From the NCBI RefSeq assembly GCF_004354985.1, contig NZ_SMSK01000011.1, forward strand, positions 62,001-126,000: a DNA stretch of 64,000 nt, written 5' to 3'. Origin of the DNA: Segetibacter sp. 3557_3 (GTDB lineage Bacteria; Bacteroidota; Bacteroidia; Chitinophagales; Chitinophagaceae). The notes beneath the pieces were generated by a model, which saw only the letters and a list, made by a program, of their open reading frames with translations, had not been told where the DNA came from and did not search any database. Positions 29,469 to 62,363 of this stretch are shown piece by piece; positions within the stretch are counted from its first letter, which is position 1; each line of letters begins with the position of its first letter. The translations under genes and the position numbers were made by a program.

Positions 29469-30104
29469 TAAGATGAACTATGAATGATAAGAGATGAAAT
29501 ATGAGTGATGAGGTATCATTCGTAAGGTATTAAGAAGCCACAGCTTTGAAGTCATACGATATGCTGTAATGGAGTTAGCAATGAGTAATCGAACGCAAAC
29601 TCCCGGTTTTTAGTATTGTCAAGAAAATGCATTCATACTTCATCATTCATACTTTCTTTTTGTTTCCAGCAGGAGGAATGCTATTTGGCTCCGGTTGTGT
29701 CACTCACTTGTACGGCATATCATTGCTGGGCAAAAATGCTCTCCTTATACCAATTGGCATTTCATGTAAATATAAAGGATCAATCTCCTGGTAACAAAAG
29801 CTGCGGTAAATCTAAGATACAAGCCCGCCCGGCTGACGCCGTTCGGACGGGTGGGCTTGTACGGCATATCGTTGCTGGGCTAAAATGCGCTCCTTATAGC
29901 GAATAAGACTAAATTCCTGTGGAAGGAATCAGTTAGTGTAGATGCAGGAGAATATTCTCTTAAATCGGTAAAAAGGCTAGAGTCAAGGAGCTGCTGACCT
30001 TTCACGTCTCATCTCTCATCGTTCATATCTCATCACTCCTTTCACGTCTCATATCTCCTAACCTTTCATTCAACATCTGGCATTCAACATACAACATAAA
30101 GAAA
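29469..30104. repeat. Gene-free region with direct and dispersed repeats
   Basis: No gene is supported. Two direct copies of a 43-bp sequence beginning CTTGTACGGCATATC lie at 29707-29749 and 29856-29898 with 40 of 43 bases equal. A GGAATGCTATT phrase at 29675-29685 is shared with 5805-5815. The 3' end (29999-30090) has TCATCTCTCAT-type phrases related to the 6-kb repeat field. The palindrome listed separately lies between the direct repeats. Confidence 0.75.
29818..29861. repeat. REP-like palindrome
   Basis: TACAAG+CCCGCCCG (29818-29831) and CGGGTGGG+CTTGTA (29848-29861) are inverted arms that match except for one G-T pairing. The 32-bp core 29824-29855 has the same length and outer arms as three elements in the pseudo-tRNAs at 31.2-33.1 kb. 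This is the only one outside the tRNA array. Confidence 0.75.
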
Positions 30105-30878: not shown

Positions 30879-30950
30879 GGTCCCGTAGTTCAATGGATAG
30901 AATAGAAGTTTCCTAAACTTTAGATACAAGTTCGATTCTTGTCGGGACTA
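30879..30950 (+). tRNA. tRNA-Arg (anticodon CCU)
   Basis: 72 bases fold as a tRNA. Acceptor arm GGTCCCG (30879-30885) pairs with CGGGACT (30943-30949, one G-T), with A73 after it; the CCA end is not encoded. The D arm is GTTC...GAAT. The anticodon arm is GAAGT TTCCTAA ACTTT with CCT at positions 34-36, which reads arginine AGG. The T arm is ACAAG TTCGATT CTTGT. The rare AGG codon makes this often a single-copy gene. It is the only intact tRNA in the array; three partial copies follow. Confidence 0.93.
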
Positions 30951-30965
30951 CTAATTAGGTTGAAA

Positions 30966-31244
30966 ATGTTTTATGCTTATGTGCTGAAAAGCGTCTCGCA
31001 TAACTACTATTACAAAGGTCATTGCCACGATCTGGAGACCAGACTACGCCAGCACAACTCCGGCATGACCCAGTCGACCCGCCCATATCTTCCATTTGTT
31101 ATAGTTTACTTCGAAACCTTCGACACGGAGGTTGATGCTATTGCAAGAGAGAAATACTTTAGACGGCGAGTGGGAGAAAGTTTATTAAAAAGAAGTTGGA
31201 TGAATAAGTCAATGTTAGGTGCTAACGACCGTGAACAGTTGTAG
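30966..31244 (+). pseudogene. GIY-YIG nuclease-family gene, copy 1, frameshifted
   Basis: Starts MFYAYVLKSVSHNYYYKGHC only 15 bases after tRNA-Arg. Up to IAREKYF (about residue 65) it equals the intact copy at 31342. Then one A is missing near 31161 (ACTTTAGACGG against ACTTTAAGACGG), and the frame changes to an unrelated tail RRRVGESLLKRSW ending at 31244. The end therefore overlaps the following pseudo-tRNA. The lost base could be real or a sequencing slip in an A run. Confidence 0.8.
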
Positions 31245-31326
31245 CATAGAGGCTTCCTTAACTTTAGATACACCCGCCCGACTGTACCAGCCGGTACGGG
31301 CGGGAGTTCGATTCTTGTCGGGACTA
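31241..31326 (+). pseudogene. Partial tRNA-Arg, copy 1, with palindrome insert
   Basis: GTAGCATAGAGGCTTCCTTAA and the following ACTTTAGATACA match the D/anticodon part of tRNA-Arg with three substitutions in the anticodon arm and a shortened D arm. AGTTCGATTCTTGTCGGGAC with TA gives the T arm and 3' acceptor. The 5' acceptor strand is missing. A 32-bp palindrome separates ACA from AGTTCG. It cannot fold as a working tRNA. Confidence 0.75.
31273..31304. repeat. 32-bp REP-like palindrome in pseudo-tRNA 1
   Basis: CCCGCCCG (31273-31280) pairs with CGGGCGGG (31297-31304), with an inner TACC/GGTA. It sits between tRNA positions AGATACA and AGTTCG. Confidence 0.8.
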
Positions 31327-31341
31327 CTAATTAGGTTGAAA

Positions 31342-31584
31342 ATGTTTTATGCTTATGTGCTGAAAAGCGTCTCGCATAACTACTATTACAAAGGTCATTG
31401 CCACGATCTGGAGACCAGACTACGCCAGCACAACTCCGGCATGACCCAGTCGACCCGCCCATATCTTCCATTTGTTATAGTTTACTTCGAAACCTTCGAC
31501 ACGGAGGTTGATGCTATTGCAAGAGAGAAATACTTTAAGACGGCGAGTGGGAGAAAGTTTATTAAAAAGAAGTTGGATGAATAA
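31342..31584 (+). CDS. GIY-YIG nuclease-family protein, intact copy
   Basis: 80 residues, the full size of small UPF0213/YhbQ-like GIY-YIG proteins. YAYVLKS stands for GIY/VYIL; YYYKGHCHDLETRLRQHNSG is the YIG-to-HN segment (YIG altered to YKG) with the conserved Arg; VIVYFETFDTEVDAIAREKYFKTASGRKFI carries the catalytic-type Glu and the closing EK-F-K-x-GR motif. The start is taken from MFYAYVLK because upstream sequence is pseudo-tRNA. It is the only complete copy of four. GIY-YIG proteins are DNA-cleaving enzymes; whether this one cuts tRNA-gene DNA is an inference from its position. Confidence 0.85.
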   Translation: MFYAYVLKSVSHNYYYKGHCHDLETRLRQHNSGMTQSTRPYLPFVIVYFETFDTEVDAIAREKYFKTASGRKFIKKKLDE

Positions 31585-31617
31585 GTCAATGTTAGGTGCT
31601 AACGACCGTGAACAGTT

Positions 31618-31703
31618 GTAGCATAGAGGCTTCCTTAACTTTAGATACACCCGCCCGACTGTACCAGCCGGTACGGGCGGGAGTTCGATTCTTGTCGGGA
31701 CTA
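31618..31703 (+). pseudogene. Partial tRNA-Arg, copy 2, with palindrome insert
   Basis: Same as the copy at 31241, displaced by 377 bases, with no base difference seen. It consists of a degenerate D/anticodon part, the 32-bp palindrome and the T arm with 3' acceptor. Confidence 0.75.
31650..31681. repeat. 32-bp REP-like palindrome in pseudo-tRNA 2
   Basis: CCCGCCCG (31650-31657) and CGGGCGGG (31674-31681). Identical to the element at 31273. Confidence 0.8.
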
Positions 31704-31718
31704 CTAATTAGGTTGAAA

Positions 31719-31859
31719 ATGTTTTATGCTTATGTGCTGAAAAGCGTCTCGCATAACTACTATTACAAAGGTCATTGCCACGATCTGGAGACCAGACTAC
31801 GCCAGCACAACTCCGGCATGACCCAGTATATCCGTTCCCATTACAGGTTGCCGATTTAA
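31719..31859 (+). pseudogene. GIY-YIG gene, copy 3, 3'-truncated
   Basis: Begins like the other copies (MFYAYVLKS...HNSGMTQ) but after ACCCAGT at 31827 the sequence departs and the frame ends as YIRSHYRLPI at 31859. The catalytic-type Glu and the C-terminal motif are lost. The last shared 25 bases (31802-31826, CCAGCACAACTCCGGCATG onward) return with three changes at 32853-32877 in copy 4, so the intervening 1 kb looks inserted or joined by recombination. Confidence 0.75.
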
Positions 31860-32005
31860 TGTTTCTTGCCTGGCGAGTTATTGCACATCCCTCGTGAAAA
31901 CCTCATATACCATCTTTGATTGATCGACAACTCGTACTGCGACTGTTTCCCAATAAGCTTTGAAGAAGATGTTATTGGATTGATGACTAAATAAATCCTG
32001 ACGGT

Positions 32006-32449
32006 TCAATTTCTCTGTAACGTATACTTTGTTCTCTCATTCCACGCATAGTATATTCCTGGCTTCAACTTAGATAAGTAAAAAATCGCATAGGGGTAAC
32101 ATCCGCCTTTAAACAGGACCCGGCCCGAAGTAGTGGTTACTTTGTAATATGCACGTCGGGAGCTATTTTCAATTAATAAACTGTGGTTGATTATTTCTCT
32201 TCTTCCAGAAGGGTGAATGAGATAACTGGGGCGCGTTTCACTTGTTTGGTAGTCCGAATGAAAGAGGGTGTCCGGGCCTCCCGAAATAGATTTAGTTCTG
32301 GGATGCTGGGGAAAAAATACCCTGACCTTAGACTTCTCAGGATCGTTAGAGATCCACATTCTACCATGTTTTTCAAAACGAAAAGGCTGCCCAATCGAGA
32401 AAATCGGCACCAGTAAGAGAGCCGCTAATATTTCCTTAATTGGGTTCAT
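32006..32449 (-). CDS. Small exported protein of unknown function
   Basis: 147 residues with a signal peptide (MNPIKEILAALLLVPIFSIG before QPF) and a ribosome-binding-like GGAGGGG (minus strand) before the ATG. The mature part is basic and aromatic (YYKVTTTSGRVLFKGG, YAIFYLSKLKPGIYYAWNE); the closing region resembles a type IX-like C-terminal beta motif (GxYxxWxxxRT) but is not a clear match. It lies inside the GIY-YIG array, between the two broken copies, so it may be cargo of the element or host sequence split by recombination. I do not recognise it. Confidence 0.6.
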   Translation of the reverse strand: MNPIKEILAALLLVPIFSIGQPFRFEKHGRMWISNDPEKSKVRVFFPQHPRTKSISGGPDTLFHSDYQTSETRPSYLIHPSGRREIINHSLLIENSSRRAYYKVTTTSGRVLFKGGCYPYAIFYLSKLKPGIYYAWNERTKYTLQRN

Positions 32450-32852
32450 AAGGTCCCCTCCGGTGCTTTTCTCCTGCTGGTAAGCTCATTTTCGGCAGTC
32501 ACTAACGGCTTTTTACGTAACGTGGTCTTTGTTGACATTTTCTCCCTTTTCCTTTGCCAAAAATAAACGATTTTCAATACTTACACGACCTTCAACACAT
32601 GATACCTTCTCCATCCCGCACTCCGATCCGATCTTGACTGAACCGGGTGGTACTTATTTCCATTCTTCCCCACGCCGAGCGCTTTGCTTTGCGCCAGTAC
32701 TTTGTTATACCGCTTAAACATCGTCAGTGCTTATGACCGCGGATGCGCACAATTTATTCGGCACTTACCGTTTCCAAATGGGACGGTTGCGCAGATCGCC
32801 GGCCGGCGCAGTTGCCGCGTTTAGCTGTCCAAAGTACGGGGAGAATACTGTA
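32450..32852. other. Intergenic region within the array, no gene seen
   Basis: About 400 bases without a supported gene, tRNA or repeat. It ends in ACTGTACCAGC (32847-32857), which is shared with the palindrome inner part of the pseudo-tRNAs and runs directly into GIY-YIG sequence, suggesting a recombination join. Confidence 0.5.
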
Positions 32853-33003
32853 CCAGCACAACTTCGGTATGACACAGCCTACCCGACCTTACATTCCCTT
32901 TGTTATTGTTTACTTTGAGAGCTTCGAAGCGAAAATTGATGCTATTGCAAGAGAGAAATAGTGTAAGACGGCGAGCAGAAGGAAGTTTATTAAAAAGAAG
33001 TTA
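32853..33003 (+). pseudogene. GIY-YIG gene, copy 4, 5'-truncated with nonsense codon
   Basis: Translates as QHNFGMTQPTRPYIPFVIVY, FESFEAKIDAIAREK, then a TAG, then CKTASRRKFIKKKL in the same frame. It is the C-terminal two thirds of the GIY-YIG protein, more diverged than copies 1-3, with the first third missing and one stop (TAC to TAG-type change). It is followed, as the others are, by a partial tRNA-Arg. Confidence 0.8.
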
Positions 33004-33051
33004 GGGGGTAGGTTTATCAGTTGTGTTCAGGGTAGGTTGGAACTGAAGAAC

Positions 33052-33130
33052 GGAAGTTTCCTAAACTTTAGATACACACGCCCAACTGTACCAGCCGGTA
33101 CGGGCGGGAGTTCGATTCTTGTCGGGACTA
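33052..33130 (+). pseudogene. Partial tRNA-Arg, copy 3, with palindrome insert
   Basis: GGAAGTTTCCTAAACTTTAG (33052-33071) and ATACA equal the true tRNA anticodon arm, so CCT is intact here. TTCGATTCTTGTCGGGACTA provides the T arm and 3' acceptor. The 5' acceptor and D arm are absent and replaced by unrelated sequence. The palindrome is again between ATACA and AGTTCG. Confidence 0.78.
33077..33108. repeat. 32-bp REP-like palindrome in pseudo-tRNA 3
   Basis: Same 32-bp element; the left arm is degraded to CACGCCCA while the inner TACC/GGTA and right CGGGCGGG (33101-33108) are kept. Confidence 0.7.
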
Positions 33131-33262
33131 CGTATTGGTTTGAGATGCATTTAAGTCGATCGTCCTTTATGGGTAAAGTAGGTTGCAAAAGACAGAAAGC
33201 AGAACTCTAAATGATCAACCAGCAGCTTTCAAGATTTTATAAATCCACAATGCGCTATCCAG

Positions 33263-61688: not shown

Positions 61689-62363
61689 ATGGCAACAACA
61701 GCAATCACAACGGATACCAAATGGTGGGGTGGGGGAAAGAGCCCTTTTAATGTAGAGTACGGAAAATTAATGATGTGGTATTTTTTAATGAGTGATGCCT
61801 TCACATTTGGGGCTTTTCTGATTGCTTACGGTACAATTCGGTTTAGTAGCACAGGATGGCCTGATCCAAACGAAGTTTTTCAATCCTTCCCGGGTTTAGG
61901 TAGCGGGTTGCCGTTGATGTTCGTGAGTTTGATGACTTTTATCCTGATCATTAGCTCAGTTACCATGGTGCTTGCTGTACGTGCAGGACATGAAAGAAAC
62001 AAAGCAGCTGTTGTAAAATATCTTTTCTGGACAATTATCGGAGGTATTGCCTTCCTGAGTTGCCAGGCATGGGAATGGCACCATCTTCATGAAGAAGGTG
62101 CATGGTGGGGACGTAATCCGTTTGTTAACCAGGACGGAACCGCATCTTCAACCAACTTTACCAACTTCTTTTTTACCATCACCGGTTTTCATGGTTTCCA
62201 CGTTTTCTCAGGTGTTGTCATCAATATTATTATGTTGATCATGGCAATGACTGATACCTTTGAAAGGAGAGGTCACTACCTGATGATTGAGAAGGCCGGT
62301 CTTTACTGGCACTTTGTTGACCTAGTTTGGGTATTCGTGTTCACTTGTTTTTACCTTATTTAA
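61689..62363 (+). CDS. Cytochrome c oxidase subunit III, second copy
   Basis: 224 residues. LMMWYFLMSDAFTFGAFLIA, LSCQAWEWHHLHEEGAWWG, ITGFHGFHVFSGVVINIIML and LYWHFVDLVWVFVFTCFYL match subunit III with seven-helix-like ordering. It is only distantly similar to the first copy, so the pair is ancient. The first gene of the pair ends 86 bases upstream. Confidence 0.93.
   Translation: MATTAITTDTKWWGGGKSPFNVEYGKLMMWYFLMSDAFTFGAFLIAYGTIRFSSTGWPDPNEVFQSFPGLGSGLPLMFVSLMTFILIISSVTMVLAVRAGHERNKAAVVKYLFWTIIGGIAFLSCQAWEWHHLHEEGAWWGRNPFVNQDGTASSTNFTNFFFTITGFHGFHVFSGVVINIIMLIMAMTDTFERRGHYLMIEKAGLYWHFVDLVWVFVFTCFYLI

Follow-up and report, generated by a model that had tools for sequence, protein, structure and literature searches.

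Integrative islands insert at the 3′ ends of tRNA genes, make the tRNA whole and leave its displaced end beyond the insert. The stretch of Segetibacter sp. 3557_3 DNA analyzed here (64,000 nucleotides (nt), positions 62,001 to 126,000 of contig NZ_SMSK01000011.1; the window) contains an array in which an intact tRNA-Arg(CCU) gene is followed by four copies of a GIY-YIG nuclease gene, one of them intact, and three partial tRNA-Arg copies (30879-33131). It is one case of a family of elements common across Bacteroidota and allied phyla. These elements differ from integrative islands in being units of a few hundred bases in which no integrase was seen, in lying also on the 5′ side of tRNA genes, and in having a hairpin at the displaced part. 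The nearest described system, as far as the accessible part of its report goes, is SegB of phage T6, a free-standing GIY-YIG homing endonuclease whose cuts fall within tRNA genes, which it amplifies (PMC13096335). Common to both are the GIY-YIG nuclease, gene positions near tRNAs of many isotypes and local amplification of tRNA together with nuclease. SegB is phage-borne, and the accessible text mentions no hairpin-bearing tRNA copies (PMC13096335), whereas the nuclease here is chromosomal, a domain of some 80 residues, and its lineages mostly keep to a single tRNA identity.

REP/RAYT systems and REPINs also combine a small nuclease gene with palindromes, gene-less copies included, in those portions of the papers that were available (PMC2817692, PMC3116915). 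The enzyme there is a Y1 transposase, whereas here it is a GIY-YIG protein and the hairpins are set into copies of the neighboring tRNA. The Y1 (HUH) transposase, a hallmark of REP/RAYT, is not what these elements encode; in Pfam the element protein matches GIY-YIG alone. Group I introns with homing endonucleases in tRNA genes share, in the available text of one account (PMC3984707), a homing-endonuclease-like protein and insertion into a tRNA arm. They differ from the present elements, in which the intact tRNA is kept rather than spliced; a group I intron was rejected after Rfam, at its gathering threshold, gave only tRNA and no intron in eight loci. Free-standing homing endonuclease elements share the homing-family nuclease domain (PF01541) and the existence of alleles lacking the element. 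No description of elements like these was found in the literature covered, which was mostly open-access and without bioRxiv preprints, and the accessible portion of a paper on the GIY-YIG superfamily uses the word tRNA three times, never about gene neighborhood (PMC1564403). We consider it somewhat probable, from the arrangement of the sequences, that a family of small selfish elements invades tRNA genes in a homing-like manner, each carrying a single-domain GIY-YIG gene together with sequence by which the invaded tRNA is retained or rebuilt in one complete copy.

The tandem unit of the window array is a GIY-YIG gene plus a partial tRNA-Arg copy, with a repeat spacing of 376/377 nt. The initial annotation had listed the intact tRNA, the partial copies and the frameshifted, intact and truncated states of the nuclease genes correctly. 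What it took for tRNA 3′ halves are indeed partial tRNA copies, but not plain halves: they span about tRNA nt 20-73, and a 32-nt palindrome breaks them after nt 50, on the stem of the T arm close to its loop. This palindrome was searched for within the window only, and the matches expected from 100 shuffles were 0.00 both for it and for the tRNA 3′ end. A nearly identical 32-nt palindrome is present in a different family, where a tRNA-Ala copy carries it in the D loop (L135).

The linkage of such genes to tRNAs was surveyed with the window protein alone as query, which was matched in 24 of 59 relatives (E 1e-6), and with a profile of 27 proteins, which was matched in 189 of the 296 genomes that an even draw across the phylum gave (E 1e-10); the profile consists mainly of tRNA-linked proteins, a choice that biases the counts of this draw. 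The 164 loci compared comprise 57 from the window's own genome and relatives and 107 from the phylum draw, namely the best-scoring places listed, without the last two and three duplicates. A tRNA-like sequence lies within 250 nt on the same strand at 138 of the 164 (41/57 in the own genome and relatives, 97/107 in the phylum draw), compared with none in antisense in either survey (0/164) and eight in a distal control at 1,000-1,250 nt (two and six, respectively). A first pass had linked 52 of 74 open reading frames (ORFs), with counts of 0 in antisense, 0 in shuffled sequence and 2 in a distal window of 1,150-1,400 nt. An intact tRNA is found within 200 nt at 131/164 loci, only upstream at 89, only downstream at 30 and on both sides at 12, and never on the opposite strand. 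The linked loci represent 31 named isoacceptors. Thus the small cassette with a tRNA border and no integrase that the initial annotation had suspected does recur beside many tRNA genes, and the observation by which it would have been refuted, GIY-YIG genes of relatives that have no link to tRNA ends, does not hold for most of the loci compared.

In the typical layout, the ORF is positioned between an intact tRNA and a copy bearing a hairpin in the D, anticodon or T arm. A partial copy of the same tRNA lies across the ORF, on its far side, at 106 of the 132 loci with an intact tRNA; 30 loci have a copy on the intact tRNA's other side and 25 have partial copies on both outer sides, against two in a far control. 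At 37 of the 132 the ORF comes before its nearest intact tRNA, and 27 of these 37 have a partial copy upstream of the ORF. Alignments score at least 40 at 109/132 loci (shuffled maximum 22), and 75 of the 109 carry an insert of at least 10 nt. Judged against mononucleotide shuffles, nearly half of the inserts (47/95) have a fold that beats 95% of them and reaches −4 kcal/mol or below. These hairpin-like inserts are placed in or at the edge of the D, anticodon or T loop in 36 of 47 cases (expected fraction 0.35), the other 11 being in stems or junctions. Insert positions are recurrent: across four host families (f1, f9, f24, f35), Arg and Leu tRNAs carry the palindrome CCTGCCTGCCGGCAGGCAGG or a near form after nt 21-23, and in Ser tRNAs the T loop contains a 22-nt double hairpin that splits GGTTC from GAATCC. 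Fourteen double hairpins chosen by eye covary, with a score of 0.442 against 0.100 ± 0.029 and none of 500 randomizations as high. The arm that carries the hairpin tracks the protein tree beyond what the amino acid accounts for (32 rows; 11 changes vs. 15.7 ± 1.4, one of 300 shuffles as low). In our comparison, the SegB motif RAWTSGAAC, as given in the accessible part of its report (PMC13096335), is the complement of the tRNA T-loop sequence where many of the hairpins sit, and the T-loop break of the hairpin copies falls within that complement. Folding of 69 inserts was no better on the tRNA strand (mean −12.3 sense, −12.7 antisense; Wilcoxon P 0.03 in the opposite direction), and an RNA-level function of the hairpins was rejected on this ground.

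Filled and empty sites could be compared at a tRNA-Ala locus, whose downstream flank was matched in 26 of 121 genomes of one genus. The tRNA-Ala is present in 18 of these 26 stretches, seven with the nuclease gene and 11 without; among the other eight, L211 has the gene without the tRNA and seven have neither. The element terminator TACCC..GGGTA follows the intact tRNA-Ala at 7/7 filled sites and at 0/11 sites without the gene, and the native terminator pattern was matched at 10 of those 11; terminator and hairpin patterns were written after the sequences had been seen, and the unmatched site (L216) has a similar terminator. A native-type terminator stands behind the far tRNA copy at all six filled sites that keep this copy, and at six of the seven filled sites a hairpin-bearing 5′ copy is placed on the native leader, the intact tRNA beginning later. 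The tRNA-Ala element has therefore truly inserted: what lies outside it is the host leader and terminator, and what lies inside is the intact tRNA together with a foreign terminator and the ORF. Comparison of filled with empty sites thus reveals both a whole tRNA that has been kept and a displaced tRNA end beyond the insert. The initial annotation had envisaged insertion behind a tRNA that copies the tRNA end as a new border; the old tRNA-Ala end is indeed found beyond the cassette, but the border is a hairpin-bearing copy, and the intact tRNA may also stand downstream of the ORF, as in the 37 loci above. Among the 11 sites lacking the gene, L216 and L219 still have a 5′ remnant, suggesting that loss occurs as well. 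The orthologous genes for the nuclease at this locus have a nonsynonymous divergence (dN) of 0.005-0.14, with a ratio to synonymous divergence (dN/dS) of 0.01-0.09 in the four of 15 pairs with an estimate, and are under purifying selection. Across L207-L227, within this one genus, tRNA-Ala(GGC) has two anticodon-stem forms several base pairs apart, at filled and empty sites alike.

Empty sites were likewise found for the tRNA of the window. Ten genomes of the genus were searched, the window's own included, and the orthologous TPR gene was found in seven congeners. tRNA-Arg(CCU) adjoins it in 7/7, and no GIY-YIG match lies behind this tRNA in any of the seven, over stretches of 558-1281 nt in six and of 112 nt to the contig end in L077. 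For the tRNA-Met locus of genome G225, in genus g61, 29 other loci comprise 16 with tRNA-Met and no GIY-YIG gene and 13 without tRNA-Met. These 16 join the 7/7 tRNA-Arg(CCU) sites and the 11 tRNA-Ala sites (vs. seven with the element) as alleles lacking the element at the same site.

A tree of 127 proteins (76 columns), each with an intact, named tRNA and a match of sufficient length and strength, leaves most forks unresolved. The tRNA isotype requires 59 changes on it, compared with 100.6 ± 2.3 when labels are shuffled (lowest of 200: 93) and 96.9 ± 2.6 when they are shuffled inside host families (lowest 90). Host family requires 72 changes, against 91.3 ± 2.5 when shuffled. Anticodon variants of one amino acid mix on the tree; Ser, Leu and Met groups exist, and Ser turns up in three or more distinct ones. 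Protein lineages track the amino acid of the linked tRNA.

In a further test, a named genome collection was searched with nine proteins (six Met-linked, three Asn-linked); the best 80 of 349 matches, to which all counts in this paragraph refer, gave 79 loci. Sixty-nine are linked: 59 to an intact tRNA-Met(CAT), seven to a partial tRNA-Met and one each to tRNA-Asn, tRNA-Val and an odd tRNA, with no tRNA at the remaining 10. The test is not fully independent of the earlier survey, as five records overlap (five survey loci coincide with records of Gracilimonas, Balneolaceae, a Rhodothermia metagenome-assembled genome and one of Chitinophagales, the window's own order); recounted without them, 65 of 74 loci are linked, 62 to tRNA-Met (55 intact, seven partial). 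The tRNA-Met genes are initiator-like in 52 cases and not in 19, an assignment by the anticodon stem, whose signature we take to mark initiators. By NCBI name the 79 loci belong to Bacteroidota (67), Balneolota (9), Rhodothermota (1), Cloacimonadota (1) and KSB1 without assigned phylum (1).

The AlphaFold2 model of the window protein is a single GIY-YIG domain (mean predicted local distance difference test score 95.8), a bare domain of about 80 residues without a DNA-binding extension. Residues Y5, Y16, G18, R26, H30 and E62 are invariant in alignment A1 and are presumably the catalytic residues of a GIY-YIG nuclease. A search of solved folds gave UPF0213 BH0048 as the best match (E 1.8e-3), a likeness to small stand-alone GIY-YIG proteins, UPF0213 among them, followed by Slx1 and I-TevI, with none at E 0.001 or better. 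Slx1 is a structure-selective nuclease, and a similar mode of action would fit hairpins that are conserved in structure and vary in sequence. Among 27 related proteins, 13 match the group I intron endonuclease family TIGR01453 and nine a phage homing endonuclease PHROG. Carriage as phage or plasmid cargo was considered and rejected: a Met-type protein gave 12 phage records and one plasmid record, all below 48% identity, the window protein not having been searched there. Viral contigs queried with alignment A3 gave at least three short matches.

For the selfish elements, the layout suggests the following route. The nuclease would cut or nick a resident tRNA gene at the arm that afterwards carries the hairpin, and recombination on the tRNA halves would copy the element in, as in homing. 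The hairpin-bearing arms may be what is left of the target, now beyond cleavage, or a DNA fold to which the nuclease itself is directed; unequal recombination could then yield tandem arrays such as that of the window. In the same allele, the flanking tRNA copies are interrupted by hairpins while an intact tRNA persists. A further reading, somewhat less probable, is that these elements form a new selfish class widespread in Bacteroidota: each lineage would be locked to one tRNA identity, the initiator included, and would invade one arm, a hairpin replacing this arm in the flanking copies and a spare tRNA on the element ensuring survival of the host. If the GIY-YIG enzyme reads structure, it might then link this class to dispersed palindrome families.

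Several observations weigh against homing by selfish elements. The main gap in the mechanism is that the intact tRNA, with the supposed target inside it, remains beside an intact nuclease gene. No resistant tRNA-Ala allele was seen among the sites compared, the ACGC stem being present at 2/7 filled and 6/11 other sites. The hairpin is recognizable in only four of the six far tRNA-Ala copies, and synonymous divergence at this locus is high (pS, the synonymous proportion, 0.34-0.91), so recent transfer is not seen. In genome G225, whose tRNA-Met locus has five GIY-YIG matches, terminators after intact and modified tRNA-Met are alike and native-like, resembling those of the empty genomes L333 and L354; tandem duplication is as good an account of this array. 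At a tRNA-Ser locus in genus g128, the stretches of 15 relatives contain no tRNA. By the criteria used, 26 of the 164 survey loci are unlinked, some at contig ends and some in other repeats. At E 0.001 the protein of the window has no match in NCBIfam, PHROGs or PADLOC. Phages, plasmids and viral contigs, searched only with Met-type queries, yielded few matches, and these were distant.

The genome of the window contains nine matches to the window protein, in four loci, the window array being the first. At the second locus, three tandem copies lie behind tRNA-Asp, with hairpin-bearing tRNA-Asp copies at both sides. The third has one gene within 114-nt repeats that appear by eye to be hairpin-bearing tRNA-Pro copies with terminators, and fails the automatic linkage criterion of the survey. 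The fourth is a GIY-YIG gene without a tRNA, embedded among clustered copies of a dispersed repeat. As this genome has 39 tRNAs above the Rfam cut-off, the chance that a random site falls within 200 nt of one is, by arithmetic, well under 1%. The dispersed repeat, CGTCATTGCGAGGNACGAAGCAATC (two mismatches or fewer), has 108 copies in this genome and 0-26 in 12 other genomes searched; its clusters are at L009 (G000:C30:186315-189732) and on C6, C11, C22 and C35, one of them containing a GIY-YIG gene. Six survey loci (L030, L059, L060, L064, L065, L066) have GIY-YIG genes without a tRNA that are flanked, by eye, by other repeat-like sequences.

The fourth locus, inside its 108-copy repeat cluster, and the GIY-YIG genes found in other repeats would suit a structure-driven repeat mobilizer similar to REP/RAYT but with a GIY-YIG enzyme. 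Such an enzyme would read palindromes as folded or cruciform DNA and spread hairpin repeats, with tRNA genes favored since they fold; we judge this the leading alternative, though an unlikely one. It accords with the conservation of hairpin structure under varying sequence and with the presence of Slx1 among the nearest solved folds, albeit at no E value of 0.001 or better. The palindrome CCTGCCTGCCGGCAGGCAGG is dispersed, occurring in 8 of 20 genomes at 1-15 copies each, and in four relatives just 5 of 36 copies are in the GIY-YIG loci detected with the window protein (eight places viewed comprised one GIY-YIG locus and two others near tRNAs). This dispersal agrees with a mobilizer, but it also leaves most CCTGCCTGCCGGCAGGCAGG copies without a known adjoining GIY-YIG gene, which does not. 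An array without an ORF, 11 hairpin units after a tRNA-Thr in G347, again favors mobilization of hairpins as such. Also against it, the protein lineages track tRNA identity and hairpins recur at the identical tRNA position across host families, which fits a sequence target.

It is improbable that the nuclease and the modified tRNAs are domesticated and kept by the host, for example to raise the tRNA dose or to act as decoys for toxins that cut tRNAs. The purifying selection, strong in those few pairs that gave an estimate, would agree with such a role, SegB amplifies tRNA-Tyr against Septu according to the accessible text of its report (PMC13096335), and weak PADLOC matches link five of the 27 related proteins to the candidate PDC-S14 and four to UzuA. 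However, presence is patchy, with empty sites in congeners; the modified copies are without parts that a tRNA needs; and hairpins that are no more stable on the tRNA strand give no support for an RNA role. An artefact of assembly, or passive tandem duplication of a gene that adjoins a tRNA, with no tRNA-tied mechanism, would match the near-identical tandem units of the window and suffices for the Met array of G225, but is scarcely credible as a general account and was rejected as such, given the same layout at 31 isoacceptors, the absence of antisense linkage, the tree, the tRNA-Met search and similar arrays in the single-contig genomes G347, G291, G243 and G225, which make a short-read artefact unlikely to explain the pattern.

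Invasion of tRNA genes by selfish elements, if true, would explain a pattern that is common in a major bacterial phylum and for which the literature covered offers no explanation, namely small GIY-YIG genes beside tRNAs together with odd extra tRNAs and fragments, and would mean that an essential gene class serves as a homing target without splicing or integrase. It would also provide dozens of natural nuclease-target pairs in which tRNA identity could serve to decode specificity, as well as a potential cause of change in tRNA genes. At L023 and L043 ARAGORN reports hairpin-bearing or altered copies as additional tRNAs (Phe, Arg), which may make the tRNA counts of such genomes too high, and annotation pipelines that count altered copies as tRNAs would need care.

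The features of the window array are collected in Table 1.

Table 1. Features of the tRNA-Arg(CCU)/GIY-YIG array, in window coordinates
Feature	Position	Strand	Evidence
Intact tRNA-Arg(CCU), invaded or restored tRNA gene	30879..30951	+	ARAGORN; RF00005 66.4 bits
GIY-YIG copy 1, frameshift, one base short near 31161 vs. copy 2	30966..31207 (ATG 30966)	+	88% identity to copy 2, residues 1-76
Modified tRNA-Arg copy 1, about tRNA nt 20-73	31242..31327	+	
32-nt palindrome, T arm of modified tRNA copy 1	31273..31304	+	Fold −20.7 kcal/mol
GIY-YIG copy 2, sole intact one, 80 residues	31342..31584	+	Pfam PF01541 E 1.5e-11; conserved residues in alignment A1
Modified tRNA-Arg copy 2	31619..31704	+	
32-nt palindrome in modified tRNA copy 2	31650..31681	+	
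GIY-YIG copy 3, 5′ part only	31719..31834	+	
GIY-YIG copy 4, 3′ part only, in-frame TAG, more diverged	32846..33002	+	
Modified tRNA-Arg copy 3	33047..33131	+	
Palindrome in modified tRNA copy 3, 2 mismatches	33077..33108	+	

GIY-YIG copy 2 and the copy 4 fragment differ by a dN of 0.13 and a dS of 0.73. The 5′ part of copy 3 and the 3′ part of copy 4 are separated by approximately 1 kb of unrelated sequence (31835-32845), in which a 147-residue ORF on the minus strand (32006-32449) matched no Pfam family. Besides the GIY-YIG frames, no ORF longer than 147 residues that might encode an integrase is present within 30879-33131, smaller ORFs not having been scanned.

Outside the window, copies of CCTGCCTGCCGGCAGGCAGG without a GIY-YIG gene stand close upstream of tRNA-Pro and tRNA-Gly genes at L191 (G023:C2:62342) and L192 (G043:C5:112515). 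The G347 array (L201, G347:C1:2803003-2804155) consists of tRNA-Thr(TGT) and then 11 units of about 112 nt, with no GIY-YIG gene. Each unit comprises a T-loop double hairpin, the tRNA 3′ end and a terminator, and a different terminator follows the last unit. Within the window, on the 5′ side of the array, a 43-nt direct repeat occurs at 29707-29749 and 29856-29898, its two copies being 93% alike.

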